64,000 bases of DNA from Paenalcaligenes suwonensis (GTDB lineage Bacteria > Pseudomonadota > Gammaproteobacteria > Burkholderiales > Burkholderiaceae_B), in the NCBI RefSeq assembly GCF_011290505.1, contig NZ_JAANPV010000008.1, positions 124,001 to 188,000 of the forward strand, in the 5' to 3' direction. Shown here piece by piece: positions 3,794-24,124 of the stretch (positions are counted from its first letter, which is position 1; every line of letters begins with the position of its first letter). A program made the translations under genes and the position numbers. Under the pieces are notes generated by a model that was not told the DNA's origin, did not search any database, and saw nothing but the letters and a program-made list of their open reading frames with translations.

Positions 3794-4684
3794 ATGTTAA
3801 AAAACACCCTCGTGCGTCTTTCCTGTGGCGCAGCAGTACTGATCAGCCATAGCGCTGTTGCCATTGAAGGTAATGGCTTGCCCATCTACCCCGATGGGCT
3901 TGAAAACTATATGTCGGGTGCGTTGCCCGGCCCCGGTGTTCATCTGCTGATGTATGCCGGTTCTCTTAGCTACAACTCGGTACGCGATAAACACGGCGAT
4001 AAGTTACCTATTCAAGATTTCAGTGTGGACGTCAATATGGTGGCACCTCGTGTGATCTGGGTAACTGGGGCTCAGGTCGCGGGCGGTCAATTGGCCTTTC
4101 ATGCGCTGTTCCCTCTGCTCACGGTTAAAGAAGAGGCGTTCGGCCAGCGTAAGCGTCGCACCGGTTTGGGCGATATCGCCTTTGGCCCCGCCTTGGGCTA
4201 CCACTTTAGTGAAAATGCCCATGCCGTGGTGGGGGTGGATTTTGTAGCCCCTACTGGCTATTACCGCCAAGACGCGATGGCTAACTTGGGTCGCAACTAT
4301 TGGACTATTCAGCCAGCCGCCGCTTTTACCTATATGCAGCCTAGCGGCATCAATGCCGACTTGAAGGTGATGGTGGATTTTAACTTCCGCAATAACGACA
4401 CCCGCACGCGTACCGGCAATGCTATTCACGCCGATTACGCGCTGGGCTATGGCTTTGGTAACGGTTTTGTAGCGGGTGTGGGGGGTTACGCCTATCAACA
4501 AATTGCCAGTGACTCTGGCCCTCGTTCGGGTGATGGCCGAGCCCGTGCGTTCGCGATTGGCCCATCTCTGCGCTATGCCAACGCCAATGGCTGGTTGTTT
4601 AGCGCCAAGTGGCAACAGGATTTCGGTGTACGCAGCCGCCCTAAAGGGCATCAGTTGATGCTTAAAGCGGCCATCCCCTTCTAA
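3794..4684 (+). CDS. SphA/MetA-pathway-type outer-membrane protein
   Basis: A 296-residue protein with a signal peptide (about residues 1-23, ending SAVA) followed by an all-beta sequence with alternating aromatic and small residues. It resembles the phenol MetA-pathway/SphA family of putative outer-membrane channels linked to aromatic catabolism. The opening EGNGLPIYPDGLENYMSGA is characteristic, and the final strand ends in phenylalanine, as in outer-membrane barrels. It is 24 bases upstream of the SDR gene and probably leads the operon. Its likely role is uptake of a hydrophobic or aromatic substrate across the outer membrane, which is inferred from family and context. Confidence 0.8.
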   Translation: MLKNTLVRLSCGAAVLISHSAVAIEGNGLPIYPDGLENYMSGALPGPGVHLLMYAGSLSYNSVRDKHGDKLPIQDFSVDVNMVAPRVIWVTGAQVAGGQLAFHALFPLLTVKEEAFGQRKRRTGLGDIAFGPALGYHFSENAHAVVGVDFVAPTGYYRQDAMANLGRNYWTIQPAAAFTYMQPSGINADLKVMVDFNFRNNDTRTRTGNAIHADYALGYGFGNGFVAGVGGYAYQQIASDSGPRSGDGRARAFAIGPSLRYANANGWLFSAKWQQDFGVRSRPKGHQLMLKAAIPF

Positions 4685-4708
4685 CGCCTATTTCACGACG
4701 AGACAATT

Positions 4709-5497
4709 ATGAAAGGTTTACAAGACAAGGTTTTTATCATCACCGGTGGCGCTACCTTAATTGGTACGGGCGTGGTGGATGTGCTAACAGGTTACGGCGC
4801 TCGTGTCGCTATTTTTGATATTGATGAAGCCGGTGGCGAGATTGCGGCAGGTAATGATCCCAAACACTGCAAATTCTGGCGCACTGATATCACCGATGAT
4901 GCGGCGATTAGTCGCACTATCTCGGCAGTGAATGCATACTTTGGCCGCATTGATGGGCTGGTGAACTTAGCCTGCTCGTACGTAGACGAGGGCATGAATT
5001 CGTCTAGACAAGATTGGCTGCAAGCGCTGGATATTAATGTGGTCAGCGCAGTTGCCATGAGCAAGGCTGTACGCCCCTATCTGATTGAGCAACAAGGCGG
5101 TGCGATTGTGAATTTCACTTCGATTTCTTCTTCCGTTGCGCAAACGGGGCGCTGGCTGTACCCCGTGTCTAAGGCCGCTCTGGTGCAGTTAACTAAAAGT
5201 TTGGCGATGGACTTCGCCCCCGACCACATTCGGGTGAACTCGGTGTCGCCGGGCTGGACGTGGTCCAAGGTGATGCATTCACTCACCAATGGTAATCGCT
5301 ACAAAACCGATAAGGTGGCCGCCCCCTTCCATCTATTAGGTCGCGTGGGCAACCCCGAGGAAGTGGGCGAGGTGGTGGCCTTCTTGTTGTCTGACGCCGC
5401 TAGCTTTGTGACGGGAGCGGACTATGCCGTGGACGGCGGGTATTCCGCCATGGGCCCAGAACAAAACGTTCCCGCCATTCCCAAACTTGCCCAATAA
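4709..5497 (+). CDS. Short-chain dehydrogenase/reductase (SDR)
   Basis: A classical SDR of 262 residues with a Rossmann fold. The cofactor motif near residues 12-20 reads TGGATLIGTG, in place of the usual TGGxxGIG. The active site has a serine in SISSS and the YxxxK pair in YPVSKAAL, and the end carries FLLSDAASFVTGADYAVDGGYS. It probably oxidises or reduces an alcohol or dihydrodiol with NAD(P). It lies in a tight run with the outer-membrane protein before it and the flavin monooxygenase 32 bases after it, so it likely acts on a pathway intermediate. The substrate is unknown. Confidence 0.87.
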   Translation: MKGLQDKVFIITGGATLIGTGVVDVLTGYGARVAIFDIDEAGGEIAAGNDPKHCKFWRTDITDDAAISRTISAVNAYFGRIDGLVNLACSYVDEGMNSSRQDWLQALDINVVSAVAMSKAVRPYLIEQQGGAIVNFTSISSSVAQTGRWLYPVSKAALVQLTKSLAMDFAPDHIRVNSVSPGWTWSKVMHSLTNGNRYKTDKVAAPFHLLGRVGNPEEVGEVVAFLLSDAASFVTGADYAVDGGYSAMGPEQNVPAIPKLAQ

Positions 5498-5529
5498 CGC
5501 TATTTCAGTAAAAAAATTAGGAGACTCTT

Positions 5530-6777
5530 ATGCGTAAAGTTGCCATTATTGGTGGTGGTCAGGCGGGTATGCCCGTTGCTTTTGGCCTATTAGACAAAGG
5601 CTACGATGTAGCGCTCTACACCAACCGCACCCCCGATCAAATTCGCCAAGGACGGGTCATGTCCAGCCAGTGTATGTTTCCCCATGCGCTGGATGTGGAA
5701 CGACGCCTAGGCATCAATCACTGGGATGAGGAATGTCCCCCCGTTGAAGGTATTGGCTTTGCCCTACCCAACCCCGACAAACCAGACACCAAACTGTTGG
5801 ACTGGGCCAGCCGCATTGAACGCCCCGCCCAAGCCACTGATCAACGGTTAAAAATGCCCATATGGCTGGAAGAGTTTGAGCAGCGTGGTGGCCGTTTGGT
5901 TTTTGAAGACGTAGGCGTAGCCGAACTAGAACGTATTGCCGAGGAACACGAGCTAACTATTCTGGCCGCGGGTAAAGGCGAAGTGGTGCGTTTGTTTGAG
6001 CGTGATGCAGAACGTTCCCCTTTCGATAAACCACAACGTGCATTAGCCCTGACCTACGTACACGGTTTGGAACCCATGCCAGAGTTCTCGCGGGTGTCGT
6101 TTAACTTCATCCCCGGTGTGGGCGAATACTTTGTGTTTCCCTCCCTCATCTTGTCTGGCCCCTGCGACATCATGGTGTTCGAGGGCATTCCAGGCGGCCC
6201 ATTAGACCGCTTCCGCGATACCACCTCGCCACAAGACCACCTAGAACGCAGCGTGTCTTTCTTGCAAGAATTTTTGCCATGGGAAGGCGACCGTTGCCGC
6301 AATGTAGAACTGACTGACGACCAAGGTTATTTGGCAGGCAGCTTCCCGCCCTCCGTTCGTAAACCTGTGTTGACGCTACCTTCTGGACGCATCGTATTAG
6401 GCATGGGTGATGCAGTAGTGGTGAACGACCCTATTACGGGTCAAGGCTCTAACAATGCCGCCCGTTCTGCCCAAGTGTATTTGGACAGCATTTTGGCACG
6501 TGGCGAGCAAGCTTTTGACCGTGAGTGGATGCAATACACCTTTGATACCTACTGGAACTACGCCGGTAAAGTGGTGGCATGGACAAATTCCATGTTGCTG
6601 CCTCCAACGGAATCCGCACTGTCTCTATTAGGCAATGCCGCCAGTTCACCACGTATGGCTAGCTTTTTAGCCAATGCCTTCAATAACCCTACCACCCTGT
6701 TCCCCGCTTGGACTGATGTGTCAGCCGCGCAAGCGCTGATTGCCAAACTGGCCGAAGAACAGACTACGGCTGCTTGA
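5530..6777 (+). CDS. Styrene/indole monooxygenase-type FAD flavoprotein (StyA-like)
   Basis: A 415-residue flavoprotein resembling the oxygenase half of two-component styrene and indole monooxygenases, which use reduced FAD and oxygen to epoxidise vinyl- or hetero-aromatic compounds. The N-terminus has the dinucleotide motif GGGQAG (residues 8-13). The C-terminal half carries GMGDAVVVNDPITGQGSNNA (about 290-310), the flavin-binding GD segment of group E monooxygenases. Length matches StyA (about 415). The start ATG at 5530 follows AGGAG. It is followed directly by a flavin reductase gene, as in styAB. The substrate may be indole, styrene or a related ring, which sequence cannot settle. Confidence 0.85.
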   Translation: MRKVAIIGGGQAGMPVAFGLLDKGYDVALYTNRTPDQIRQGRVMSSQCMFPHALDVERRLGINHWDEECPPVEGIGFALPNPDKPDTKLLDWASRIERPAQATDQRLKMPIWLEEFEQRGGRLVFEDVGVAELERIAEEHELTILAAGKGEVVRLFERDAERSPFDKPQRALALTYVHGLEPMPEFSRVSFNFIPGVGEYFVFPSLILSGPCDIMVFEGIPGGPLDRFRDTTSPQDHLERSVSFLQEFLPWEGDRCRNVELTDDQGYLAGSFPPSVRKPVLTLPSGRIVLGMGDAVVVNDPITGQGSNNAARSAQVYLDSILARGEQAFDREWMQYTFDTYWNYAGKVVAWTNSMLLPPTESALSLLGNAASSPRMASFLANAFNNPTTLFPAWTDVSAAQALIAKLAEEQTTAA

Positions 6778-6796
6778 TCATAAAGGAGAGATTGCC

Positions 6797-7324
6797 ATGT
6801 CCACACAGGCTGAACTGGTTAAGGAAACGGTCACTTTTGATAGCCGCACCTTCAGGCAAGCGCTGGGGCACTTTCCTACGGGAGTTGCCATTGTTACCAC
6901 GCGTAGCCCCGAAGGACGGCCTGTAGGTCTGACCATCAACTCCTTTGCTTCGCTGTCCTTAGACCCTCCCTTGGTGCTGTGGAGCTTGGTGAAACACTCA
7001 CCTAGCCTCGCTTTTTTTCAAGACTGTAAACACTTTGCTATTCATGTGATCAGTCAGCACCAAGTAGAGGCAGCGCTAGGCTTTGCCAATTCGCGTACTG
7101 AAGACAAGTTTTCACTGGTCAGCCACTCTAGTAGTGATGAGGGTATTCCCGTGATTGATGACTGCATTGCCACCTTTATCTGCGAAAATCACAACCAACA
7201 CGATGGGGGTGACCACACGCTATTTATAGGCAAAGTCATACGTCACGATACGGAGCCCACCTTAGCACCTGCGGTGTTTCACCGTGGTGGTTTTACCCAT
7301 CTACAACAACAATCAGGAGACTAA
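6797..7324 (+). CDS. Flavin reductase (StyB-like partner of the adjacent monooxygenase)
   Basis: A 175-residue flavin reductase of the FMN-binding split-barrel fold. FRQALGHFPTGVAIVTT near residue 18 and GLTINSFASLSLDPPLVLWSL near residue 48 are hallmarks of the family. It uses NAD(P)H to supply reduced flavin to a partner oxygenase. I place the start at the ATG at 6797, with AAAGGAGAG just upstream; an upstream in-frame start at 6740 lies inside the preceding gene. It sits between the StyA-like gene and an FAD oxidoreductase, three bases before the latter, so it most likely serves the StyA-like enzyme. Confidence 0.88.
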   Translation: MSTQAELVKETVTFDSRTFRQALGHFPTGVAIVTTRSPEGRPVGLTINSFASLSLDPPLVLWSLVKHSPSLAFFQDCKHFAIHVISQHQVEAALGFANSRTEDKFSLVSHSSSDEGIPVIDDCIATFICENHNQHDGGDHTLFIGKVIRHDTEPTLAPAVFHRGGFTHLQQQSGD

Positions 7325-7327
7325 TTC

Positions 7328-8917
7328 ATGCAGCAACATCAGGATGTGGTCGTTGTGGGCAGCGGTATCAACGCGTTATGTTGTGCCGCACTGCTTGCCT
7401 GTAGAGGGTTAACCGTAACCGTACTAGAGCGCAACGCTGTAGCGGGTGGCTGCATTCGCACCGAGGAGCTCTTCCCCGGCTTTACCCACGATGTGTTTTC
7501 CAGCTGGTATCCCCTGTTTGTAGGGGGTGCCGCATATGCTGAGTTGGCACAACCGTTGGCGGATGCAGGTTTGCGCTTTGTGTCAGGCAACTACAGTACC
7601 GGGTTAGCTACTCCGCACGGCACCGGTATTGCGTTGCGCCAAGATATTGCCGATACCGTACAGCGCCTAAATGCTATAGCCCCCGGTGATGGCGATGCCA
7701 TAGGGCAAGCTGCGAATCAGATCTTCGGCCCTGATGCAGGCTTGGTGTTTGGGCTAATGGGCAACGACCCCTACAGTTGGAAAACCAGCAAATTGCTGTT
7801 TTCGTCTTGGCGACAACGTGGCCTAGACGGCATGATGCACTTTGCGTCTGAGTCCTTAGAAAACTTCAGACGCTGGGCTGAATACGCCTTGCAACATGAC
7901 TTAAGCCGCGCCCTGATTGCCCCTTGGGTATTACACAGTGGCTTAGGCCCAGACGAAGCGGCGTCCTCCCTCATTGGCAAACTCACCTTCTCGGCAGTGG
8001 TCGCAGGTGGCATGCCAGTGGTAGAAGGCGGTAGCTATAACTTAGTAGAGGCCTTCATTCGTGTGATTGAATCGCGGGGCGGCCAACTGTTGACGAATCA
8101 AGACGTGGAAGAAGTCTTAGTAGAAAACGGCAAGGCCATAGGCGTACGCACCACCACGCAACAGCGCTATCTAGCGAGCAAAGCTGTAGTCTGTAACGTT
8201 ACCCCCAATCAACTGTACGAAAAACTGCTGCCCCAAGCGGACGACAGCCACAAGCAAATGGCGCGTCGTTACCGCTATGGGCGGGGTGGCATGCAAATAC
8301 ACTTCGCCTTAAAAGAGCGCCCCCAGTGGCTCAACCCCGAGCTACTGAACGTGCCTATGGTGCACGTGACCGAAAGCATGGAGCAAGTATGTGCCTCGGT
8401 AGTAGAGGCCAATAATGGCTGGTTGCCTGCAAAGCCTACTCTGGCTGTAGGCCAACCCGTTGCGGTAGACCCTAGTCGCGCACCGGATGGCAGTTGGATA
8501 CTGTGGGTGCAAATGCAAGACATGCCTTCTTCTGTGAAAGCAGATATGGGCAACGAGCTGCCTATTCCAGCAGATGGCCGCTGGAACGACACCTTACGCG
8601 ACGGCATGACAGAACGGGTACGACAGCGCTTAGAAACCGTGATGCCTGGTTTTAGCGAACATATTGTTGGCTGCAAAGCCTACAGCCCAGCAGATTTAGA
8701 GGCATGGAATATTAACTTGGTGGGTGGCGACCCGTATTCAGGGGTGTGTTCGCCTGACCAGTTTTTCTTTATGCGTCCATTTGCGGGCGATAACAAAACC
8801 CGTACGGGGCGCACGCCTATTTCTAATCTGTTCCAAATAGGCGCATCGGTGCACCCAGGGCCTGGTTTAGGTGGTCAATCGGGGTATTTGGCGGCTCAAC
8901 GCATCCGCAAAGCCTAA
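7328..8917 (+). CDS. FAD-dependent oxidoreductase, phytoene-desaturase-like
   Basis: A 529-residue flavoprotein of the phytoene dehydrogenase/amine oxidase superfamily. The FAD motif VVVVGSGINALCCA starts near residue 7, followed by TVLERNAVAGGC (about 30-43). The C-terminal FAD segment reads NLFQIGASVHPGPGLGGQSG (about residues 500-520). Family members desaturate or oxidise hydrophobic substrates; the precise reaction is unknown. It starts three bases after the flavin reductase, which implies co-translation, and ends the operon. It converges on the AraC regulator eight bases away. Its tight link to a StyA/StyB pair is unusual in known styrene clusters. Confidence 0.84.
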   Translation: MQQHQDVVVVGSGINALCCAALLACRGLTVTVLERNAVAGGCIRTEELFPGFTHDVFSSWYPLFVGGAAYAELAQPLADAGLRFVSGNYSTGLATPHGTGIALRQDIADTVQRLNAIAPGDGDAIGQAANQIFGPDAGLVFGLMGNDPYSWKTSKLLFSSWRQRGLDGMMHFASESLENFRRWAEYALQHDLSRALIAPWVLHSGLGPDEAASSLIGKLTFSAVVAGGMPVVEGGSYNLVEAFIRVIESRGGQLLTNQDVEEVLVENGKAIGVRTTTQQRYLASKAVVCNVTPNQLYEKLLPQADDSHKQMARRYRYGRGGMQIHFALKERPQWLNPELLNVPMVHVTESMEQVCASVVEANNGWLPAKPTLAVGQPVAVDPSRAPDGSWILWVQMQDMPSSVKADMGNELPIPADGRWNDTLRDGMTERVRQRLETVMPGFSEHIVGCKAYSPADLEAWNINLVGGDPYSGVCSPDQFFFMRPFAGDNKTRTGRTPISNLFQIGASVHPGPGLGGQSGYLAAQRIRKA

Positions 8918-8924
8918 GACAAGG

Positions 8925-9908
8925 CTAAAGCGTACTGTGACGCACGCGCTGCAAACTTTGACTGGGTGTTTCACCAAAACGGTCACGGTACGCAGCGCTA
9001 AAACGTCCTAAATGGGCAAAGCCCCAACGTAGCGCGATATCGGCAACGGAGCATTCAGCAGAGTCGCCGTGCGTCAGTAAGTCGGCACGTACACGATCTA
9101 AACGCAGTTGGCGCAAATACTGCATAGGGCTAACGCCACAATGTTCTTTAAACGCCACCTGCAAGGTACGTACGCTCACCTGCGTTTGAGCAGCCAACAC
9201 ATCCAGATTAATAGGCTGATCTATGTGTTCGTGTAAGTAGTTTTCCACCTGCTTAATGTGGCGCGGCAAAATAGCGCTGCGCACGCGGTTAAAACCCGAC
9301 TGTTGTACGGGCGGATGCTCACCTAACAAGGTGGTCACTACCAGTTGTTCTAATTGCCGTATCAATAAAGGAGAACGCTGCATGGTAAGCGAGTTACGCG
9401 CACAATCTACTAAGTAACGCAGCATTAACTGCCAACTGACGGATTTATGGCATTCGAACTTGGCCGGAAAATGCACCCCACTCACTAAGGTGTCTACCCC
9501 TAAGTCTTGAGCTGTTTGCTCTAGCAACAATCGATCAATTTTGATCATGATTTGTTCGTTACTAGCTTGCCAGTTCATGTCTATCTCAGCATTGGGGCTT
9601 AGCACCGAGGCCACACCCGGCATGGAATCTACTTCTTCCCCCCCACAGCGCACGGTAGCTTGACCATATTGTGGGATTTGAATGAGGTAATAATCCACTA
9701 GGTCGTCTGGCTGAATACGCACATGAGCACCGTAGCCTAGGCGTATCACATCTACCTGACCAAAGTTGGCATGACGTATACACGACTGCAAGCTGCGCGC
9801 CTTCAACACGCTTAGCTTGTGAGGGGTCAGCATGTTACTGATCAACGTTTGCACCTGATCAGCACTGGAAGACATTACGTTTTCCCAAGAAACAGAATCA
9901 GTACTCAT
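8925..9908 (-). CDS. AraC-family transcriptional regulator
   Basis: A 327-residue regulator. The N-terminal part (about 20-200) resembles the AraC-binding-like sensor domain found in regulators of aromatic catabolism. The C-terminal 100 residues hold two helix-turn-helix units: LDVLAAQTQVSVRTLQVAFKE, and SVADIALRWGFAHLGRFSAAYR with the usual FGETPSQSLQ end. It is convergent with the monooxygenase operon and divergent from the flavin reductase gene at 10072; the 163-base gap between them contains an inverted repeat. It probably controls one or both flanking units in response to a pathway compound, by analogy with AntR/CadR-type regulators. Confidence 0.88.
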   Translation of the reverse strand: MSTDSVSWENVMSSSADQVQTLISNMLTPHKLSVLKARSLQSCIRHANFGQVDVIRLGYGAHVRIQPDDLVDYYLIQIPQYGQATVRCGGEEVDSMPGVASVLSPNAEIDMNWQASNEQIMIKIDRLLLEQTAQDLGVDTLVSGVHFPAKFECHKSVSWQLMLRYLVDCARNSLTMQRSPLLIRQLEQLVVTTLLGEHPPVQQSGFNRVRSAILPRHIKQVENYLHEHIDQPINLDVLAAQTQVSVRTLQVAFKEHCGVSPMQYLRQLRLDRVRADLLTHGDSAECSVADIALRWGFAHLGRFSAAYRDRFGETPSQSLQRVRHSTL

Positions 9909-10028
9909 GACAGATACTCGGAAAACCCATTAACCCAGACTTTAGGCCGTATTGGCTAAAGACCTCTTCTGCATTGCAGTAGAGATAGTTTAGTTATAAA
10001 GTATATAGATCCCTATACGTATATTCCC

Positions 10029-10048: not shown

Positions 10049-10071
10049 ATTCACAGGAGACACGATTCACC

Positions 10072-10683: not shown

Positions 10684-10708
10684 CTTCAGCCCGCTTACCT
10701 TCACCCTC

Positions 10709-10828: not shown

Positions 10829-11800
10829 ATGATCAAACGCACACTATTGGGTGCCGCCCTACTGTCGTGTAGTTTCTTTAGCGTTCATGCTGAAGAAGTC
10901 ACACTAAAGGCCGTCAGTGCCTTTAACACCGATACCTTCTTCACCGACCGCTTTAAAGTCTTTGTCGATAAGGTGAACGAGGACGGTAAGGGCTTAGTAC
11001 AAATCCAATTTTTAGGTGGCCCCGAAGCGGTACCTACCTTTGAAGTAGGCAATGCGGTGCGTGCAGGTGTGGTGGATCTGGCCAATAGCTCTGCCGTGTT
11101 TCACGCCAACTTGGTACCTGAAGCCTTGGCCATGACGCTCACGGACCGCTCTATTCAAGAGCTACGCGCCAATGGCGGCCATGCGCTCATGGACAAGCTG
11201 CACCAAGACAAAGCCAACATGCTGTGGTTGGCCCGTGTTACGGACGGCTTGCAATACCACATCTACACTAACAAGCCAGTTAGCCAAGCCAGCGATTTGA
11301 AGAAAATGAAGCTGCGTAGCGTCCCTACATACTTGGCTTTTTTCCAAGCGCTAGGGGCTTCTGCGCTACAAGTGCCACCGGGTGAGGTCTACACCGCGCT
11401 TGAGCGTGGCGTGGTAGATGGCTACGGCTGGCCATCGGTAGGGGTGCTGGATTTAGGCTGGCAAGAAAAAACCAAATACCGTATTGATCCCGGCTTCTAC
11501 AACGTGGAAGTGAGCTTGTTCATGAACAAAAATAGCTGGAACAAGCTAGATGATGCCCAAAAAGCCTTCCTACAAGAAAAAATCGAATGGGTAGAGTCCT
11601 TAAATCAAGAAGACCTACAACGTGCTGAACAAGAAAAAGCACGCCAAGCCGAAGCCGGTGTAGAAACCATCACCTTATCGGATGAAGCTGGCCAAGAGCT
11701 ACGCGCTATTGCTTATAAAGCGGGTTGGGATGGCATCGCCAAATCCAGTCCAGCGCATGCAGCCGCCTTGCAAGAACTGTTCGGCGACGACGTGCCGTAA
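10829..11800 (+). CDS. TRAP transporter substrate-binding protein (DctP type)
   Basis: The periplasmic solute-binding subunit of a TRAP transporter, 323 residues. It has a signal peptide (about 1-21, ending VHA). The conserved DctP core includes KKMKLRSVPTYLAFFQALGA (around 151-170), whose arginine normally binds the carboxylate of the ligand, and VYTALERGVVDGYGWP (about 187-202). The ligand is therefore probably an organic acid. AACGGAG lies upstream of the ATG at 10829. It is the first gene of a four-gene set with both membrane subunits and a ketopantoate-reductase-like enzyme. Confidence 0.9.
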   Translation: MIKRTLLGAALLSCSFFSVHAEEVTLKAVSAFNTDTFFTDRFKVFVDKVNEDGKGLVQIQFLGGPEAVPTFEVGNAVRAGVVDLANSSAVFHANLVPEALAMTLTDRSIQELRANGGHALMDKLHQDKANMLWLARVTDGLQYHIYTNKPVSQASDLKKMKLRSVPTYLAFFQALGASALQVPPGEVYTALERGVVDGYGWPSVGVLDLGWQEKTKYRIDPGFYNVEVSLFMNKNSWNKLDDAQKAFLQEKIEWVESLNQEDLQRAEQEKARQAEAGVETITLSDEAGQELRAIAYKAGWDGIAKSSPAHAAALQELFGDDVP

Positions 11801-11859
11801 TGCCTTCCTAGCCAGACCTGCCCCTGCGCGGGGCTGGCGCACTCTTTTTCCTAGCCATT

Positions 11860-12381
11860 ATGAAAACAGCCTCTACTTCTAGTGTAGGCGTGCTTGTGCA
11901 CGGCTATAAATTCATCATGACGGCCTGCGGAGCTCTTGCCGCCATTATCTTCGGACTCATGAGCCTACTGATTGGCTTTGATGTGATCTTGCGTAACTTG
12001 GGCTACGACTGGATTCCCTCCAGCGTAGAGCTGTCTGAGTACATGCTTATGATTGCCACCTTTGCTGGTGCGCCTTGGCTCTTGTATCACAACGGCCACA
12101 TACGTGTGGATGTGATCGTTAACAAACTCCCCACCAGCATTGCCCGCCAACTTGAGGTGCTGTGCAACCTCCTAGGCATTGTAGTTTGTGCCACACTGAC
12201 CTGGCAGTCCTACGTCATTGCCATGGACAACGCCACCAACGGCACATTGGTCTTTAAAGAACTGGTGTTTCCAGAATGGTGGTTAAACCTACCTTTACTC
12301 GCGGCCAGTACGCTACTAACCATTGAGTTCTGCCGTCGCTTGTACCAGTCTATTCACCCACTACGTCAGCAAGGAAACTAA
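11860..12381 (+). CDS. TRAP transporter small membrane subunit (DctQ type)
   Basis: A 173-residue inner-membrane protein with four predicted hydrophobic segments, the layout of TRAP small subunits. The second helix is followed by the family's short conserved region (ELSEYMLMIATFAGAPWLLYHNGHIRVDV), with histidine and arginine-valine-aspartate at its end. It pairs with the large subunit whose gene starts three bases after this stop codon, driving sodium-coupled import of the ligand caught by the upstream binding protein. Confidence 0.88.
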   Translation: MKTASTSSVGVLVHGYKFIMTACGALAAIIFGLMSLLIGFDVILRNLGYDWIPSSVELSEYMLMIATFAGAPWLLYHNGHIRVDVIVNKLPTSIARQLEVLCNLLGIVVCATLTWQSYVIAMDNATNGTLVFKELVFPEWWLNLPLLAASTLLTIEFCRRLYQSIHPLRQQGN

Positions 12382-12383
12382 TC

Positions 12384-13703: not shown

Positions 13704-13708
13704 TCCCT

Positions 13709-16397: not shown

Positions 16398-17123
16398 TTA
16401 TACTCCCAGGTACGTTTTCCAAAGACTGCGATCGCTATCCAGTTCTGCCGACGAACCCTCCCACGCCACATGTCCTTTTTCTAGGATCACATGTCGGTCC
16501 GCCAGCCTAATTAATCGCTGTACATATTTATCTACAACCAGAATGGTCTGGCCTGCTTCGCGCAACATATCCAAACAACGCCAAATTTCTTCGCGCACCA
16601 AAGGCGCCAAGCCTTCGGTAGCTTCGTCCAAGATCAACAGTTTGGGGTTGGTAGACAAGGCTCTACCAATGGCCAGCAATTGCTGCTCACCACCTGATAA
16701 TTGGCTACCCAAGTTGCGGTAGCGCTCTTTAAGCCTAGGAAAAATCGAGTAGATACGGTCTAAGGTCCAGCGGTCTTGCTGGCCACTGCGATTATCGGCA
16801 AAAGCAATTAAGTGTTCTTCTACCGTGAGGTTTGGAAAACACATGCGCCCTTCTGGCACGATGGCAATACCACGCCGCGCAATGGAATCCGCTTTAAGGC
16901 CATTGAGTTTTTCACCCGCAAAGTGGATCTCCCCGCCCTTAGGTTTTAATGCACCAATAATGGTTTTGATGGTGGTGCTTTTACCCATGCCATTACGTCC
17001 TAGCAAGGTCACTACCTCGCCTTCACGTATCTCCAGCCCTACGCCAAACAACACTTGGCTTGCGCCATAACCCGCTTCTACATTTTTGCAGGACAGTAAG
17101 GTCCCAGTATTGGTGCTACTCAT
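16398..17123 (-). CDS. livF: Branched-chain-type ABC transporter ATPase LivF
   Basis: A 241-residue ATPase of the hydrophobic amino acid uptake (HAAT) family. Walker A is GRNGMGKST (residues 42-50), the signature is LSGGEQQLLAIGRAL, and Walker B is LLILDEATEGLAP, which is typical of LivF. It overlaps the preceding livG by four bases. Together with LivG it powers the LivHM channel. In this family, close relatives outside amino-acid uptake import aromatic acids; the CoA ligase downstream supports that use here. The symbol reflects family, not a proven leucine role. Confidence 0.9.
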   Translation of the reverse strand: MSSTNTGTLLSCKNVEAGYGASQVLFGVGLEIREGEVVTLLGRNGMGKSTTIKTIIGALKPKGGEIHFAGEKLNGLKADSIARRGIAIVPEGRMCFPNLTVEEHLIAFADNRSGQQDRWTLDRIYSIFPRLKERYRNLGSQLSGGEQQLLAIGRALSTNPKLLILDEATEGLAPLVREEIWRCLDMLREAGQTILVVDKYVQRLIRLADRHVILEKGHVAWEGSSAELDSDRSLWKTYLGV

Positions 17124-17884
17124 ACCATTGCCTCCACTGCATCGTCTTCGGTACCCAAATACACTTCTTGTACTTGCGGGTGATTACGTATTTCGTCAGC
17201 CGTGCCGGACGTCAGTATGCGGCCGTACACCAGCACAGAAATACGGTCGGCCAACTGGAATACCGCATCCATGTCGTGTTCAATTAGCAAGATGGTGGTT
17301 TCTTTACGCAGTTCGCGAATAATGCCCACCATTTGCAGGGAGTCTTCTGGCCCCATACCCGCCATGGGTTCGTCCAACAACAGCAATTTAGGGCGTGATG
17401 CCAAGGCTAACGCCACATCTAACTTACGCTGTACGCCATGCGGCAAAGTGCCAGCAATACGGTGCAAGTGCTGAGTAAGGTCTAACTTAGCGGCCAATTG
17501 CTCGGCATGCTCTTGCAGCAAAAGCTCATTAGAGCGACGCGACAAAAACCTAAAGCTGGTGCCTGAATGCGCCTGCACGGCTAGCATCAAGTTGTTCAGT
17601 ACTGTGTCTTGCCTGAAGATATTGGTCACCTGAAAGCAACGTGCCATCCCAGCACGTACGCGTAAGTGCGAAGGCATGCCCGTAATGTCTTTGCCATCGA
17701 GTACCGTGCGGCCCTGATCGGCAGGAATCAAGCCAGAGATCAGGTTAACCAAGGTAGATTTACCCGCACCGTTAGGCCCAATCAACGCATGGATTTCGCC
17801 TTTTTCAACGGTTAGTGACACATTGTCTGTGGCCAGCAAACCGCCAAAGCGTTTCACTACTCCTTCGGTTTTAAACAAACTCAT
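17120..17884 (-). CDS. livG: Branched-chain-type ABC transporter ATPase LivG
   Basis: A 254-residue HAAT-family ATPase. Walker A is GPNGAGKST (residues 36-44), the signature region is LPHGVQRKLDVALAL in place of the common LSYGEQR, and Walker B is LLLLDEPMAGMGPED. The gene overlaps livM and livF by four bases at each end, so the set is translated together. The LivG-specific insert around residues 90-120 (MARCFQVTNIF) is present. It partners LivF in driving import. Confidence 0.9.
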   Translation of the reverse strand: MSLFKTEGVVKRFGGLLATDNVSLTVEKGEIHALIGPNGAGKSTLVNLISGLIPADQGRTVLDGKDITGMPSHLRVRAGMARCFQVTNIFRQDTVLNNLMLAVQAHSGTSFRFLSRRSNELLLQEHAEQLAAKLDLTQHLHRIAGTLPHGVQRKLDVALALASRPKLLLLDEPMAGMGPEDSLQMVGIIRELRKETTILLIEHDMDAVFQLADRISVLVYGRILTSGTADEIRNHPQVQEVYLGTEDDAVEAMV

Positions 17885-18864
17885 GCTGTTTTCCCCTTTG
17901 TTTCAAACCATGCAGCAATACCTTTAGGCGCCACAAAGACCACAAACAACAGCAATAAGCCCATAGGCCAGTGCCAGTAATCGGTGTACATGCGCAGCAC
18001 TTCTTCCAGTACCAACCACACGCCAGCACCAATCACACCGCCCCAGCGGTTACCTACGCCACCAATCACCACCATCACAATCAATACCGCCGAGTGCGTC
18101 CACAGCATGAGCGAAGGACTAACAAAACCGTCGTTGCTGGCGAGCAAGCCGCCGCACAAGCCAGCTACGGCACCCGCCCCCACAAAGGCCACCAAACGCA
18201 GTCTGAACACAGGAAAACCCAGTGCGCCCATACGGGTTTCGTTATCGCGGGTACCTTTTAAGGCATAGCCATACTTAGAAACCTCTAAACGGCTATTTAG
18301 CGCAAACACCACGGCAGCAATCACCAACACCACACCATAAAAGCCGTACGACATGTCGTCTAACCAGCCGCCCATGGAAAGCGGGGTATAAATGCTGTAG
18401 CCGTCATCTCCGCCAAAAATACGCAGCGACATGGCGAGGTAATGCAGCATCTCCGCAAAAGCCAGTGTAATCATGATGAAGTACACGCCACGGGTACGTA
18501 GCGCCACCAGGCCAATCAATAACGCAGCCACACCTGACACGGCCAGTGCCATCAGCCATGCAGCCCATGCCGAGCTGTAACCGGCTTCTACGCAAGCGAC
18601 GACGGTGTAAGCCCCCACGCCGATAAAGCCCGCATGTCCCAAGGCCACCAAACCACCGTAACCTAAAATGAAGTTCAAGCTAGTCACCGCCATCATCATG
18701 ATGAGCAAGCGGTTCACAAAGCCAATGTAATAGTCCAGCTCTAGCGCCTGTAGCAACCACGGTAGCGCTGCTAATACCGCAAACACTAGCCATGGAAAGA
18801 GCTTCCCAGCCGTGCTGGAACGCTGAGCGGGTTGAGCCTGTTCTGAAGTCATGGCAATAGTCAT
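17881..18864 (-). CDS. livM: Branched-chain-type ABC transporter permease LivM
   Basis: A 327-residue permease with 8-10 hydrophobic segments after a short cytoplasmic head. The conserved GYGGLVALGHAGFIGVGAY (about 68-86) and the GGVGNRWGGVIGAG stretch (about 265-280) are LivM features. It forms the channel with LivH. It overlaps livG by four bases and follows livH by 14. Confidence 0.9.
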   Translation of the reverse strand: MTIAMTSEQAQPAQRSSTAGKLFPWLVFAVLAALPWLLQALELDYYIGFVNRLLIMMMAVTSLNFILGYGGLVALGHAGFIGVGAYTVVACVEAGYSSAWAAWLMALAVSGVAALLIGLVALRTRGVYFIMITLAFAEMLHYLAMSLRIFGGDDGYSIYTPLSMGGWLDDMSYGFYGVVLVIAAVVFALNSRLEVSKYGYALKGTRDNETRMGALGFPVFRLRLVAFVGAGAVAGLCGGLLASNDGFVSPSLMLWTHSAVLIVMVVIGGVGNRWGGVIGAGVWLVLEEVLRMYTDYWHWPMGLLLLFVVFVAPKGIAAWFETKGKTA

Positions 18865-18878
18865 GTTGTAGTCTCCAC

Positions 18879-19799
18879 TCAGGCACGTGCAGGGAACAGC
18901 CCTGCAGGTTTAAATGTCAGCACAATCGCCATCAGCAAGTACATCGCGATACCAGCCAATGCAGGTGCCAAATCCGCGGCCAAGGCAGGAGAGAGAATTT
19001 CGCGCAAAATAGGAGGCAAGAAAGCACGGCCTGATGTATCGACCAAGCCCACAATCATCGAGGCCACAAAGGCGCCGCGTACAGAACCTATGCCACCAAT
19101 CACAATGATGACCAAGGCAGGGATCAAGATGGATTCGCCCATCCCGACTTGGACGGCACTAATGGGGCCCATCAAAGCACCGGCCAACGCCGCTAATGCC
19201 GCCCCCACCAGAAATACGAACGAGAAAATGTGCCCGACTCGTACGCCCATGAACTCAGCCATAGAACGGTTAGACGCGCCCGCACGTACCAGCATCCCGA
19301 TACGGGTGTGATTCACCAGCACATACAGCGCTACCGCCACTAACAGCCCCGCTGCTAACAGCATTAATCGGTAGGCTGGGTAAGGCAAACCAGGAATGAG
19401 TTCTATAGGCATGGACAAGGCTTCTGGCATGGGCGCCATAATAGGCGCCGCACCCCAGATGGCTTTTACCGCGTCATCGGCCAGCAAAATAATGCCGAAC
19501 GTCGCCAGCACCTGCGCGAGGTGATCGCGCCGGTACAAATGCCGCATGATCAGGAACTCCAGCACCCAAGCAACCACTACCGTGGCAGCGATGGCGACGG
19601 CTAAGGCCAACCACATAGACCCACTGGCCACATGCACACGTGCCGCCACATAGGCACCCACCATGAACAACGAGCCGTGGGCTAGGTTCATGGTATCCAT
19701 AATGCCAAAGACTAAGGTCAGACCTGCTGCAATCAAAAACAGCATCAGGCCAAACCCCACCCCATTTAGCAATTGCTCAGTAATGAAGATCCCGTTCAT
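18879..19799 (-). CDS. livH: Branched-chain-type ABC transporter permease LivH
   Basis: A 306-residue permease with about eight hydrophobic segments. It starts with the LivH-type ITEQLLNGVGFGLMLFLIA and shows FGIMDTMNLAHGSLFMVGAY (about 30-49) and VIVIGGIGSVRGAFVAS (about 230-246). It forms the membrane channel with LivM. It lies 15 bases after the binding-protein gene. Confidence 0.9.
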   Translation of the reverse strand: MNGIFITEQLLNGVGFGLMLFLIAAGLTLVFGIMDTMNLAHGSLFMVGAYVAARVHVASGSMWLALAVAIAATVVVAWVLEFLIMRHLYRRDHLAQVLATFGIILLADDAVKAIWGAAPIMAPMPEALSMPIELIPGLPYPAYRLMLLAAGLLVAVALYVLVNHTRIGMLVRAGASNRSMAEFMGVRVGHIFSFVFLVGAALAALAGALMGPISAVQVGMGESILIPALVIIVIGGIGSVRGAFVASMIVGLVDTSGRAFLPPILREILSPALAADLAPALAGIAMYLLMAIVLTFKPAGLFPARA

Positions 19800-19814
19800 G
19801 CTTACCGCCTTTCC

Positions 19815-20999
19815 TTACATCTTGCATTGAGCAACGTAAGCATCTTGGTGCTGTTCAAGCACTGTACCTACCAACTTGTTCGTCAAGTTGCCGTCGCTAT
19901 CTTTTTCTACTACACGAACGTAGTAGTTCTGGATGGGGTAATGGTTAGCGCCGTAAGTGAAGTCACCACGCACCGATGCATAGCTAGGGTTTTCTAAGGC
20001 TTTCACCAACGCATCTTTGTCTTGCGCGCCACCGGCATCACGTACGGCGGCGTCCATCGCCATGATGGTGTCGTACGCCATCGCCGCATAAACCGATGGG
20101 TAACGGCCGTCGTACTTCTCGCGGAACGCGGCTACGAACTCGGTATTGGCTGGCAATGGCAGATCATGCGCCCAGTGCGCGGTGTTCTGTACGCCCAGCA
20201 TGGCTTCGCCCACCGCTGGAATAATGTCTTGGTCAGCCGAGAAGCCTGGGGCAATCATTGGAATGTCTTGCAAACCACCCGCCACGTACTGCTTCACAAA
20301 GTTAATACCCATGGTGCCGGGCAAGAAGAAAAACACGGCATCTGGTTTTTGGCTACGAATCTGCGCGATTTCGGCGGCGTAATCGATTTGACCTACTTTG
20401 GTGTAGATTTCATCGCGAACTTCACCTTCGTACAAACGCTTAAAGCCATTCAAATGGTCTTTACCTGCTGGGTAGTTAGGCGCAATGATGACCACATTGC
20501 TGTAGCCTTTTTCGTTGGCTAACTTACCACCGGCTTCATCGTAAGTATCGTTCTGGTACTGACCAAAGAAGTAAGGACTGCAACGCTCGCCGGCAAACTG
20601 GCTAGGGCCGGGGTTACTAGACAAAAACGGTACTTTGGCACGGAATAACGCAGGGGCTACCGCCAACGCTGCATTAGACGGGATAGGCCCCGTAAACATG
20701 TCGATTTTTTCACGCTGCAAATAGCGGTTCACCAACTGCGTTGCCTGCTCGGGGCTACCGGCATAGTCTGTTTTGATGAACTCTGCGGGCTTGCCACCTA
20801 AGGTGCTGCCCAGCTTTTCAATCGCCAAATCAAAACCATCGCGTGCTTCAGCACCTGAGGCGGCAAAAGGGCCGGAAATATCCAGTGCGATCCCCACTTT
20901 AACGGGATCATCTGCCCATGCTGACATACTGACACCAGCCGCCAACAGCGCTACTGTTAAACGGCGCGGAGCAAAGCCCAACCAAACTGATGTATTCAT
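19815..20999 (-). CDS. ABC transporter substrate-binding protein (LivK type)
   Basis: The periplasmic binding protein of the HAAT transporter, 394 residues. I use the ATG at 20999, because GGAGACATCA precedes it and the protein then begins with a signal peptide (about 1-30, cleaving near AWA). The core KVGIALDISGPFAASG is the usual first strand of LivK-like binding domains. Compared with leucine-binding proteins (about 370 residues) it is slightly long, as in the subgroup linked to aromatic acids. It leads the livKHMGF-ligase operon. Confidence 0.88.
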   Translation of the reverse strand: MNTSVWLGFAPRRLTVALLAAGVSMSAWADDPVKVGIALDISGPFAASGAEARDGFDLAIEKLGSTLGGKPAEFIKTDYAGSPEQATQLVNRYLQREKIDMFTGPIPSNAALAVAPALFRAKVPFLSSNPGPSQFAGERCSPYFFGQYQNDTYDEAGGKLANEKGYSNVVIIAPNYPAGKDHLNGFKRLYEGEVRDEIYTKVGQIDYAAEIAQIRSQKPDAVFFFLPGTMGINFVKQYVAGGLQDIPMIAPGFSADQDIIPAVGEAMLGVQNTAHWAHDLPLPANTEFVAAFREKYDGRYPSVYAAMAYDTIMAMDAAVRDAGGAQDKDALVKALENPSYASVRGDFTYGANHYPIQNYYVRVVEKDSDGNLTNKLVGTVLEQHQDAYVAQCKM

Positions 21000-21203
21000 T
21001 GATGTCTCCTTATTCTGATTTTTCCACCACTGGCCAGTCAATGTGGGAATCAATAATTGATGCGATGATGAGAAATCCCGCCTGCCCTGTTACTCTTAGA
21101 AAGAGCCAAGCCTAGCGTGTCACACTGGCAATGTTTACTTATGTATTATTCATTTCTAAACTAAATATGCGTAATTGGTGAAAGCCCTAATACTTTTTTT
21201 AGG

Positions 21204-21247
21204 CAAAAAAAACGGCACCAATAATCGTTAGTGATTACTGGTACCGT
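21204..21247 (-). terminator. Rho-independent terminator of the monooxygenase/flavin reductase operon
   Basis: On the minus strand a 15-base-pair stem (two of the pairs G-U) encloses a six-base loop and is followed by eight T. The stem is fully paired only in the minus-strand RNA, which fixes the direction. It lies about 70 bases past the flavin reductase stop and before the liv operon. Confidence 0.82.
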
Positions 21248-21315: not shown

Positions 21316-21828
21316 TTACGCACCCTTAGCTTGCAGGGTTCCAAACTGACCTTGCCAATACAATAAAGGCGAAGACATATTTTCCTGTGCTATTTGCACA
21401 TGCAGCACACGTGCCACTACAACAGCATGGCTATGGCACATCACAATTTCCTCCACCTCACAGGCAAAAGCGGCAGCAGCCTCATCTAGCAACCACACGC
21501 CATGATGCTGGCTCCATTGCGCACCTTCGTAGCGCTGCTCACCCTTCACCCCACCCGCTCCCGCAAAACGCATGGCTAGGTTGTCTTGATTGGCCTGCAA
21601 CACGTTGACGCCAAAGCGGCCACTTCGTTCAATTAACGGCCACGCCGAGGCTTGACCATTGATGCACACCAATAGCTCTGGCGGCTCTACCGAGACCGAA
21701 CTTACTGAGGTAACCGTCAAACCCGATCGTGTGCCTTGAAAGTCGGCGGTAATCACACTAATAGCACCGGCCAAATGTCGCATGCCTTGCTTATAGCTAT
21801 GGCTATCCACAATAGTCGTCATAGTCAT
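21316..21828 (-). CDS. Flavin reductase (RutF-like)
   Basis: A 170-residue flavin reductase with the short split-barrel form: YKQGMRHLAGAISVITA near residue 12, GLTVTSVSSVSVEPPELLVCIN near residue 37, and FGVNVLQANQ near 73. Length and layout match RutF and HpaC-type partners of flavin monooxygenases. It lies 12 bases after the luciferase-type monooxygenase gene, so it very probably supplies that enzyme with reduced FMN. It is the third flavin reductase in this 20-kb region. Confidence 0.88.
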   Translation of the reverse strand: MTMTTIVDSHSYKQGMRHLAGAISVITADFQGTRSGLTVTSVSSVSVEPPELLVCINGQASAWPLIERSGRFGVNVLQANQDNLAMRFAGAGGVKGEQRYEGAQWSQHHGVWLLDEAAAAFACEVEEIVMCHSHAVVVARVLHVQIAQENMSSPLLYWQGQFGTLQAKGA

Positions 21829-21840: not shown

Positions 21841-22929
21841 TTAAGGGCGTATGCCTCGTGCGCGCAGCAGAGGCAATACTTCATCGCGGAAATACGGAAA
21901 CTCACTGGCATAATCAAAGAACGATAATGTGGTGCCTCTAAAGCCCGCGTCATGCAAAGCACAGATCAAATCAGCCACGCGCTCGGGAGTCCCCACCAGC
22001 GGGAAACCGCCATGCCCTACTGTCATGCGTTCGCGTATTTGTGCCAGTAACTCGTGCGGGAAAGAATGCGCATGCGCAAACTGTAAGTTCACCAAGTTTT
22101 CTACCGCCCCTTCATCGGCGTTATCCAACATACGCTGCCATTCGGCATCCGCCTCGGCTTGGATAGGCCTACAGATCACATGCGAAAACGTCATAACACC
22201 CACATCACGACCTTTTTCTTGAGCTTTTTGTTTAAGCTCAGCCACTTCTTTGCGCGAACGCTCCAGCTCCATGGCTGGCGTAAATAAGAAGTCGGCATTC
22301 TGACTCGCAAAATCACGTCCTTGCCCAGAACCAGCGGCATTAAAAATAGGCGGATGGCAATCGGGGCGCGGGTCGCCGTGCACTTGGTGCAAGTTGAAGT
22401 ATTTGCCTTCCCAATCAAAACGGCCTTCGTGATCCCACAGTTTACGCACCACATCAAACCATTCTTGAGCGTAGCCATAACGTGTTTCATGATCATTAGG
22501 CAGGTCCAAGCCCAGTGCATCGTATTCAGGCTTATTCCAGCCCGCCACAATGTTTAGCCCCACGCGATTGCCACTCATTTGTGCCATGGTGGCAATTTGC
22601 TTTGCCAACACTACCGGGTGGTTAGCCACCGTATGCACCGTCGCAAAAATGTTGATGTTTTTTGTATGTGCCAGCAGCGCGGTGGCCCAAGTGACGGTTT
22701 CTAGTACATAACCATGAAAATCGGTTTCCCCACGGTAGCCCACCCAACGGGCGATAGGCAGCATAAAGTCTATGCCCGCATCGTCTAGCAACTTGGCGAG
22801 TTTAAGATTGTTTTCCCACGTCGCTTGCCAGCGGTCGGGCAACATAGATACCGTCATCCCGCCACCGCAATTACTGGCAAAGGTGCCGAGTAGAAAATGC
22901 TTACTTTCCAGCAAACTATTCTGATTCAC
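21841..22929 (-). CDS. Luciferase-like (LLM) flavin-dependent monooxygenase, RutA/SsuD-related
   Basis: A 362-residue TIM-barrel flavin monooxygenase of the bacterial luciferase family, which uses reduced FMN and oxygen. The motif GNRVGLNIVAGWNKPEYDALG (about 135-155) is shared with RutA-type pyrimidine oxygenases; AGSGQGRDFASQNADFLF (about 215-232) is a further family block. I chose the GTG at 22929, preceded by AGGAGACAACC; longer upstream starts lack a ribosome-binding site. With its RutF-like partner it forms a two-component oxygenase. Possible substrates include N-heterocycles, sulfonates or sulfones; none can be assigned. It is divergent from the AraC gene. Confidence 0.86.
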   Translation of the reverse strand: MNQNSLLESKHFLLGTFASNCGGGMTVSMLPDRWQATWENNLKLAKLLDDAGIDFMLPIARWVGYRGETDFHGYVLETVTWATALLAHTKNINIFATVHTVANHPVVLAKQIATMAQMSGNRVGLNIVAGWNKPEYDALGLDLPNDHETRYGYAQEWFDVVRKLWDHEGRFDWEGKYFNLHQVHGDPRPDCHPPIFNAAGSGQGRDFASQNADFLFTPAMELERSRKEVAELKQKAQEKGRDVGVMTFSHVICRPIQAEADAEWQRMLDNADEGAVENLVNLQFAHAHSFPHELLAQIRERMTVGHGGFPLVGTPERVADLICALHDAGFRGTTLSFFDYASEFPYFRDEVLPLLRARGIRP

Positions 22930-23120
22930 GGTTGTCTCCTGTGTGCGATTTACTTTATTACTGAGTGAAATTCTAGGAATCTCACTCACCACCCGCTATC
23001 AAGAAACTTCAGTACTATCTAAAAAACACAGAAAATTACGCTAAGGAAAACCAGCAGCATCACACCACTCAACACACTGCTCAGCACTACGTGAATACAC
23101 CAATAGGTTATATATAAACT

Positions 23121-23148
23121 ATTTACTACTATAGTAAATTCATGAATT
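23121..23148. promoter_or_regulatory. Two overlapping perfect palindromes upstream of the second AraC gene
   Basis: ATTTACTA, three bases, then TAGTAAAT form a perfect 8-3-8 dyad at 23121-23139. It overlaps a perfect 12-base palindrome, AATTCATGAATT, at 23137-23148. Both lie just before the AraC gene, within its divergent control region with the luciferase-type monooxygenase. Their symmetry and position suggest an operator, perhaps for autorepression. No start or activity is proven. Confidence 0.5.
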
Positions 23149-23164
23149 ACGGGTGGTGGCCATT

Positions 23165-24124
23165 ATGCAAAGCGCGCTGCAACACCATAAGCAGTTACGC
23201 TCTACAGACCCAGAGCAAGTGCAATCGCATATTGCACAGGTGCTGTGCGCCCATCAGCTACACCTTCGTAACCCCAAACAAGCCCTAAATACCGAACTGT
23301 ATTATCGCGCGGGTACGCATTTAGGCTTTGGACGACTGCGTTACGGCACCACCGTACACATTGCCCCAGAGCCCCTGCAAGACTTCTACCTGCTACAGCT
23401 ACCCGTGCACGGCAAAGAACAATTGCATCTGCATAACCAACGTCTGGATTACGGCCTTACGGTTGCTGCCATCATCAACCCCGAGCAAGAGTTTGATATG
23501 CAGCACACCGACACCATCAACAAGCTCTTTGTACGTATTAATAGGCGCAGTCTAGAACACTTCTTCCAGCAACATTACCAACGACCCTTACAGGGCAATC
23601 TGCATTTTTCTCCCCTGCTTTCCCTACAGCACGACGCGGGAAATAGCTTATGGCATGTGCTGCAATGGCAATTTGCAGAAGCCTCAGACGGCGTACTGTT
23701 TGACCGCCCCGACGCGAGGCAACGCTTAGAAGAAACCTTTTTGGCTACCTTGCTAGACTTATGGCCACACAATCAACCTTTGCAGGTAACGGGATCTATC
23801 ACCCCACACGCCATTAAAAAAGCCAAGGACTATATCGCACAGCACCTAGAACAAGCGCTTACCATTAGCCAAATCGCCACGGCGGCGGATATTAGCAGCA
23901 GTAGCCTATACAACGGCTTTAAAAGTTTTGTGGGATTAAGCCCCATGCAATATGTAAAGCAGCAGCGTTTGCAGCACATACATCAACGACTACTGGATGC
24001 CGACCCTAAGTCGGTCACGGTGACAGAATTAGCACTGCAAACAGGGTTTTGTCATTTAGGGCAATTTTCTGCTGATTATCAAAAGATGTTTGGCGTGAAG
24101 CCCTCGGTGACCTTACAACGTTAA
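23165..24124 (+). CDS. AraC-family transcriptional regulator
   Basis: A regulator of about 319 residues with the same two-part layout as the protein at 8925-9908. The N-terminal AraC-binding-like sensor contains LGFGRLRYGTTVHI and LQDFYLLQLPVHGKEQL. Two C-terminal helix-turn-helix units follow: LTISQIATAADISSSSLYNGFK, and VTELALQTGFCHLGQFSADYQ, ending FGVKPSVTLQR. The ATG at 23165 and GTG codons at 23153 and 23156 are all possible starts. It is divergent from the luciferase-type monooxygenase operon and probably controls it. The two regulators look like distant paralogues. Confidence 0.87.
   Translation: MQSALQHHKQLRSTDPEQVQSHIAQVLCAHQLHLRNPKQALNTELYYRAGTHLGFGRLRYGTTVHIAPEPLQDFYLLQLPVHGKEQLHLHNQRLDYGLTVAAIINPEQEFDMQHTDTINKLFVRINRRSLEHFFQQHYQRPLQGNLHFSPLLSLQHDAGNSLWHVLQWQFAEASDGVLFDRPDARQRLEETFLATLLDLWPHNQPLQVTGSITPHAIKKAKDYIAQHLEQALTISQIATAADISSSSLYNGFKSFVGLSPMQYVKQQRLQHIHQRLLDADPKSVTVTELALQTGFCHLGQFSADYQKMFGVKPSVTLQR

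Follow-up and report, generated by a model that had tools for sequence, protein, structure and literature searches.

Several gene clusters for the degradation of indole and its derivatives have been described. In Acinetobacter baumannii the iif operon consists of iifA (dienelactone hydrolase), iifB (short-chain dehydrogenase/reductase, SDR), iifC, iifD, iifE (MetA family) and the gene of the AraC-like regulator IifR (PMC4577076), and its product is 3-hydroxyindolin-2-one, i.e. dioxindole (PMC6221969). The GS cluster of Providencia includes a PF04199 cyclase and a 1613-bp oxidoreductase gene (~537 aa; PMC9871250). In Variovorax the auxin-related iadCDEFGHI genes encode a reductase, Rieske subunits, a ligase, a thiolase, a dehydrogenase and a formamidase-like hydrolase, IadI, annotated as kynurenine formamidase (PMC12633357). 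A pair of IOR genes belongs to iad loci, whose prevalence is high in Alcaligenes, and dioxindole, isatin and isatinic acid have been detected in an iad strain (PMC9613470). A route from anthranilate to gentisate was described in Alcaligenes in 1983, and according to a 2018 review its functional gene was still unrevealed (PMC6221969). The present analysis concerns a 64,000-nucleotide stretch of Paenalcaligenes suwonensis (the window; contig 9, positions 124001-188000, of a 3.54 Mb genome), which carries an iif-type operon without iifA and, further downstream, a luciferase-type monooxygenase (LLM) with a RutF-like reductase. On the evidence of gene content the window is probably the downstream half of a region for indole, indole-acetate and anthranilate catabolism. 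The region resembles neither one operon nor a conserved block; its modules appear to be regulated separately and to supply a common funnel.

The first block of the window (3794-8917, with an AraC gene at 8925-9908; Table 1) is, judged by homology, an already known iif-type indole operon, which corrects the initial annotation, where no described pathway with this gene set was recognised. The IifB, IifC, IifD, IifE and AraC equivalents are shared with the iif, ind and GS operons of A. baumannii, Acinetobacter sp. O153, Cupriavidus sp. SHE and Providencia rettgeri GS-2. The residues of an indole monooxygenase (IMO), a flavin reductase with an SDR, and an IifE-type protein with an AraC regulator are all present, in the order E-B-C-D, CrtO-like, AraC; IifA (PF01738), a dienelactone-hydrolase-family protein, is missing. 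With A. baumannii IifA as query, tblastn gave no match at E 1e-5 in the window and the 36.5 kb upstream of it, the part of the genome to which this search was confined. A gene of the PF04199 hydrolase family (cyclase), which in Providencia belongs to the GS cluster itself, lies here ~16.5 kb upstream, in an iad-like cluster. The 203-aa split-barrel flavin protein was considered as IifA and rejected, IifA being a 416-aa dienelactone-hydrolase-family protein.

The oxygenase of this block looks like an indole monooxygenase rather than a styrene monooxygenase. Its best structural matches are 9lrq (2e-170) and 7z4x (3e-165), the latter of which we take to be the Variovorax indole monooxygenase VpIndA1 (the record itself says oxygenase only), with StyA (3ihm) far behind at 5e-40. 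Residues S45, Q47, M49, V72 and I75 match, with an offset of one, the IMO fingerprint as given in PMC13101512; the sixth, A96, lies past an indel and was placed at A100, which is less certain. The protein is 60% identical to one in A. baumannii records, and the adjoining SDR is 63-65% identical to the SDR next to the IMO in A. baumannii and B. pyrrocinia. The enzyme had been called a StyA-like monooxygenase with reductase; the family assignment (Smoa_sbd) holds, while StyA proper, and with it styrene as substrate, was rejected because of a score of 214 bits against an equivalog cut-off of 550 and because of the IMO-type residues. The IifD-like reductase probably starts with the ATG at 6797, which follows AAAGGAG, instead of at 6740.

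The CrtO-like gene has counterparts of 68-89% identity in the iif operons of seven relatives, and such genes accompany the cyclase and IOR in distant loci. Its product (529 aa) is close in size to the GS oxidoreductase, and the Providencia GS cluster, as far as its description was available, is the nearest described arrangement among those compared. In one relative (G038) the iif operon itself includes a PF04199 gene, placed between those of the CrtO-like protein and the reductase and 69% identical to its P. suwonensis counterpart. Presence of genes was scored in 150 relatives, P. suwonensis counted (IMO at E 1e-80; hypergeometric values for this sample ignore relatedness). Conserved on the 3' side of the iif operon is the gene of the 203-aa protein, which in seven of the ten other IMO genomes (G001, G002, G003, G005, G007, G011, G082) shares the contig with the IMO gene and starts 2-7 kb from the IMO start.

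An iad-like (auxin) cluster occupies 99.3-123.0 kb of the contig and stops 1 kb short of the window. It begins with MarR, IOR alpha and beta, MarR, a thioesterase, a PRK08255 2-aminobenzoyl-CoA/salicylyl-CoA hydroxylase/oxidoreductase (hereafter hydroxylase), a gentisate-dioxygenase-like protein, a FAH-family hydrolase and a nitrilase-family protein (scanned as a fragment), and continues with the cyclase, Rieske reductase, alpha and beta subunits, an acyl-CoA ligase, thiolase-like and OB-fold proteins, an SDR and a second TRAP importer. With the iad loci of Variovorax, Bradyrhizobium, Alcaligenes and Achromobacter it shares the Rieske reductase, alpha and beta, acyl-CoA ligase, thiolase-like protein, SDR, PF04199 hydrolase, IOR subunits and MarR; here, in contrast, it is combined with an iif operon and with hydroxylase, gentisate-dioxygenase-like, FAH and nitrilase genes. 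The hydroxylase scores 1285 bits, above the cut-off of 1078, with a model that presumably covers the described 2-aminobenzoyl-CoA enzyme; the gene was flagged as broken, which was rejected, the TAG in question being its normal stop. The absence of a ring-cleaving enzyme, noted in the initial annotation, proved to be an effect of the window edge: the gentisate/5-aminosalicylate-1,2-dioxygenase-like gene (310 and 266 bits, under curated cut-offs of 442 and 650) precedes the first indole gene by ~19 kb and lies 16 kb outside the window. Together with the nitrilase-family amidase next to it, it would fit cleavage of an ortho-amino ring acid that leaves a carboxamide.

The order MarR, IOR, MarR, thioesterase, hydroxylase, gentisate-dioxygenase-like, FAH, nitrilase, cyclase, Rieske set, ligase, thiolase, OB, SDR, TRAP, iif, AraC, 203-aa protein is kept gene for gene in P. 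suwonensis, P. hominis (G005; iifE is not in this order there) and an Alcaligenes genome (G011; tblastn check). IMO, IOR and hydroxylase lie within 30 kb in seven of the 11 IMO genomes; among the other four, G001 and G010, the closest relative, are broken by contig ends (no IOR match in G010), and G038 and G044 have the genes apart. Three further features of this part were also recorded. The gentisate/5-aminosalicylate-dioxygenase-like, FAH and nitrilase genes stand immediately 3' of the hydroxylase (contig 9, 107294-110439; L142-L143) and are candidates for an anthranilate-to-gentisate-type route. The TRAP importer on the iad side has two DctP-type genes in tandem (120878-122957; L143), with a single one there in G005 and G011. 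Between the iad-like cluster and the iif operon lie an rlmF-like methyltransferase gene (window 81-1079) and a gene for a RES-domain protein of a toxin-like family (window 2397-2870), neither of which is found at that place in G005 or G011.

Because dioxindole is common to both, the iif and iad-like parts can be regarded as chemically linked, and therefore enzymes of the iad side plausibly stand in for the missing iifA. The first step is well supported by homology: IMO and flavin reductase would oxidise indole, and the SDR would yield dioxindole. As iifA is missing, dioxindole would then be routed to isatin, probably through the CrtO-like oxidoreductase. The PF04199 hydrolase may open isatin, or dioxindole itself, the IOR-type oxidoreductase may convert isatinate to 2-aminobenzoyl-CoA, the hydroxylase would attack the ring, and the gentisate-dioxygenase-like enzyme, the nitrilase-family amidase and the FAH-family hydrolase would finish the degradation. 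Anthranilate would be activated by the ligase of the window and perhaps taken up by the Liv importer, and the TRAP system may import an indole-derived acid. Among gut and root microbes, indole and auxin act as signals. The present combination, in which an iif operon lacking iifA is linked through dioxindole to an iad-like locus and accompanied by hydroxylase and gentisate-dioxygenase-like genes, offers candidate genes for the anthranilate-to-gentisate route of 1983.

The theme of an indole-like or aminobenzoate-like substrate, proposed at the outset, is supported, and so is the suggested sequence of uptake, oxygenation and CoA activation. As in the 2-aminobenzoyl-CoA (abm) pathway, a PRK08255 bifunctional enzyme and a benzoate-CoA-ligase-family ligase are present in the genome, while here ~31 kb part the ligase from the hydroxylase, which is followed by a ring-cleavage-type gene. 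The ligase scores narrowly under the TIGR02262 cut-off (367 vs 375 bits), and in 41 of 60 genomes a homologue of its family is encoded no more than 12 kb from the hydroxylase. Outside G010 two homologues of 72% identity were seen, and that of G038 stands ~1.3 kb from IOR-alpha, the interval holding a MarR gene. The order TRAP, ketopantoate-reductase-like, ligase, Liv is kept in G010 at 86-99% (Liv part 97-99%), and relatives of DctP are no further than 10 kb from IOR-beta in six of 26 genomes, and no further than this from the LLM in four, all Paenalcaligenes. As the hairpin at 21212-21247 parts them, the rutF-LLM and the Liv/ligase genes look like separate transcription units. A scan of the region found 26 terminator-like sites where 21.6 were expected, so that the scan alone proves nothing; this hairpin has the longest stem listed.

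The LLM is the only catalytic part for which no described counterpart was found; the remaining parts are mostly known, and it is their combination that is informative. Its fold is already fixed by the match to RutA (2e-41; SfnG 3e-39). With RutA/RutF and SfnG it has the family, a full-length alignment and a separate flavin reductase in common, and it shares pocket residues with RutA. It was rejected as RutA or SfnG proper, both equivalog cut-offs being missed (RutA TIGR03612, 169 vs 498 bits; SfnG TIGR04021, 189 vs 383 bits), and a SkaA-type skatole monooxygenase was likewise rejected, SkaA belonging to group E. Of the genes classified at 10-30 kb of the window, none besides the reductase was a rut- or sfn-like partner. 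Residues T118, N147, W152 and E156, aligned with RutA, are invariant in 76 of 76 rows (the window LLM and 75 of 79 homologue open reading frames (ORFs), four outside 300-430 aa having been dropped). They correspond, as we assume, to T105, N134, W139 and E143 of the flavin-peroxide pocket of RutA, and SfnG is without the equivalent of T118. The divergent AraC regulator is 30% identical to the first one (E 2e-44), and a relative of it (40-64%) adjoins the LLM in Paenalcaligenes and Alcaligenes loci.

The proposal, speculative and held with low confidence, is that the LLM and its RutF-like reductase perform a step undescribed in indole catabolism, the opening of the lactam of isatin or dioxindole to anthranilate by a flavin peroxide. 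In RutA-like chemistry the isatin lactam would be attacked to form an alpha-keto peracid, and loss of CO2 would leave anthranilate; such a conversion would connect the LLM with ligase and hydroxylase. To the cofactor-free IifA and hydrolysis by PF04199 it would add a third means of opening the ring, common to Pseudomonadota and Bacteroidota, and the LLM is a candidate for a new flavin reaction. In the open-access literature, most subscription journals being outside the search, no description that pairs an LLM with indole, isatin or anthranilate was found among the papers listed.

The genomic context of the LLM was read at the best-scoring 80 loci of 257 relatives, a non-random sample with many Rhizobiales and Rhodobacterales, for five markers with author-set identity thresholds (styA 45%, abmA 38%, iorA 50%, iorB 38%, cyc 40%). 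The IMO was found at 19 of these loci, the hydroxylase, IOR-alpha and IOR-beta at 17 each and the cyclase at 13; at least one marker stands at 33 of 80, and at 26 of the 59 loci that span 19 kb or more. The median gap from the LLM is 783 nt to the hydroxylase and 1230 nt to the IMO, and 12 loci with an IMO show neither cyclase nor IOR in view. Two Bacteroidota loci, L053 (Sphingobacterium, 1757-17246) and L055 (Soonwooa, 4173-19600), hold FAH, gentisate-dioxygenase-like, nitrilase, SDR, IMO, hydroxylase, LLM, cyclase, IOR and CrtO-like genes within 21 kb, which suggests transfer of the gene set as a unit. A tandem pair of LLM homologues was also seen in the Gram-positive Microbacterium sp. BR1 (L097, 8812-11119).

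The frequent position beside the hydroxylase (14 of 17 loci, with gaps of 39-1084 nt) favours another reading, in which the lactam is not the substrate and the LLM acts downstream, hydroxylating anthranilate or a CoA-bound aminobenzoyl intermediate, or converting a side product. This is possible, though on the doubtful side: ring hydroxylation is expected from the PRK08255 enzyme itself, RutA opens an amide, and T118, common with RutA and lacking in SfnG, would point to an amide-type substrate.

Co-occurrence is strong. LLM is carried by 17 of the 150 relatives, all 17 of which have IOR (48/150 overall) and hydroxylase (62/150); the DctP family is present in 16 of them (26/150 overall) and the IMO in nine (11/150). 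In a phylum-wide draw of 265 genomes, P. suwonensis counted, the LLM occurs in five, all with IOR (19/265) and hydroxylase (36/265), the four others being of one genus. The remaining eight LLM genomes among the 150 have IOR and hydroxylase and no IMO, and because of these the substrate of the LLM need not arise from the oxidation of indole. It may instead be some other tryptophan-derived carbonyl, e.g. a skatole-derived oxindole or 2-aminoacetophenone, that feeds the same 2-aminobenzoyl-CoA funnel, an alternative of modest likelihood; beside the LLM no gene known for such a route was recognised in loci with classified neighbours, most single neighbours being unclassified.

A number of findings weigh against this overall reading, the LLM step included. 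Measured from start to start, the LLM in no case comes within 40 kb of IOR or of the hydroxylase in the 17 LLM genomes, contig ends limiting some, and of the nine genomes with both genes only P. suwonensis has it within 40 kb of the IMO on one contig, contigs being too short in some (G001, G007). The idea of one conserved block is not supported, and independence of the sub-operons in relatives, which would speak against a joint role, is half borne out: IMO and LLM lie apart, while the LLM accompanies IOR and hydroxylase without exception and shares clusters with the IMO in distant taxa. No marker stands at 47 of the 80 best LLM loci (14 of these 47 are shorter than 19 kb). The LLM is absent from 31 of the 48 IOR genomes and is, for this reason, dispensable for the hydrolytic route. 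In an uncultured Acinetobacter metagenome-assembled genome (L075, 8533-11089) an IifA homologue (71% to A. baumannii) lies 137 nt upstream of the LLM on the same strand, with none of the five markers, the IMO included, in the 21 kb read; this ties the LLM to dioxindole again, yet the two genes being side by side weakens the view that the LLM simply takes the place of IifA. Around the other 72% ligase homologue (G058, L158) no pathway gene is present in 18 kb, and no contextual support beyond G010 was found for the Liv and ketopantoate-reductase-like genes. The likeness of the upstream cluster to the iad set is one of gene families, order and descriptions and not of Variovorax sequences, and in the Variovorax preprint (PMC12633357) the end product is anthranilic acid, with IadI as a broad amidase inferred to act downstream of C8H7NO2 and isatin not singled out.

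Some of this could mean that unrelated units have become neighbours by chance: an indole operon, an LLM module for sulfur or nitrogen scavenging in the manner of SfnG or RutA, a TRAP importer, and a benzoate-CoA ligase accompanied by an ABC importer for aromatic acids. The distance of LLM and IMO in relatives, the loci without markers and the hairpin between rutF and liv agree with it, as do the PtsP-like gene adjoining the LLM in Mesorhizobium and Aminobacter loci and the DsbD- and CutA-like genes in Alcaligenes loci. Nevertheless such a coincidence is considered unlikely in view of the IMO and other indole/2-aminobenzoyl-CoA markers at LLM loci, the invariable company of IOR and hydroxylase, and the RutA and SfnG cut-offs that the LLM misses.

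Profile and library scans of the window found the ORFs at all 20 places given initially to be open and to carry the families named, i.e. Phenol_MetA_deg, SDR, Smoa_sbd (StyA/IMO), three Flavin_Reduct, CrtO-like, two AraC, DctP/Q/M, AMP ligase, LivFGMHK-type and bacterial-luciferase family. The features are listed in Table 1.

Table 1. Features of the window, with positions counted from its first nucleotide
Feature	Position	Strand	Basis
Outer-membrane MetA-pathway protein (IifE/IpoC-like)	3794..4684	+	PF13557 2e-62; family of iifE and GS-E
SDR, IifB-like (indole-2,3-dihydrodiol to 3-hydroxyindolin-2-one, by homology)	4709..5497	+	PRK08265
Indole monooxygenase, IifC/IndA-like, group E	5530..6777	+	structure matches and IMO residues
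Flavin reductase, IifD-like	6797..7324	+	PF01613
CrtO/phytoene-desaturase-like FAD oxidoreductase, 529 aa; candidate for the dioxindole to isatin step	7328..8917	+	family scans
AraC regulator, in the place of IifR	8925..9908	-	AndR model 178 bits, below the 350 cut-off
Split-barrel flavin reductase-like protein, 203 aa	10072..10683	+	PDB 3bpk 3e-21
TRAP importer DctPQM	10829..13703	+	family scans
Ketopantoate-reductase-like protein	13700..14638	+	PF02558/PF08546; overlaps dctM end; absent from the earlier gene list
Benzoate-CoA-ligase-family AMP ligase; candidate 2-aminobenzoate-CoA ligase	14709..16337	-	TIGR02262
LivF, LivG, LivM, LivH, LivK branched-chain-type ABC importer	16398..21053	-	family scans
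Intrinsic-terminator-like hairpin between rutF and livK	21212..21247	-	15-bp inverted repeat, T-runs
Flavin reductase partner of LLM (RutF/HpaC-like)	21316..21828	-	PF01613; RutF 107 vs cut-off 255
Luciferase-type monooxygenase (LLM), RutA/SfnG-like; proposed lactam opener	21841..22992	-	family, alignment, genomic context
AraC regulator divergent from LLM	23153..24124	+	AndR 149 bits, below the 350 cut-off

Directly downstream of the second AraC gene lies a 282-aa ORF (window 24221-25069) with a signal-like start and no Pfam match. Further on, at 55700-58793 of the window, secretin and FHA-linked type II/IV secretion ATPase genes are found, perhaps a tad-like pilus region.

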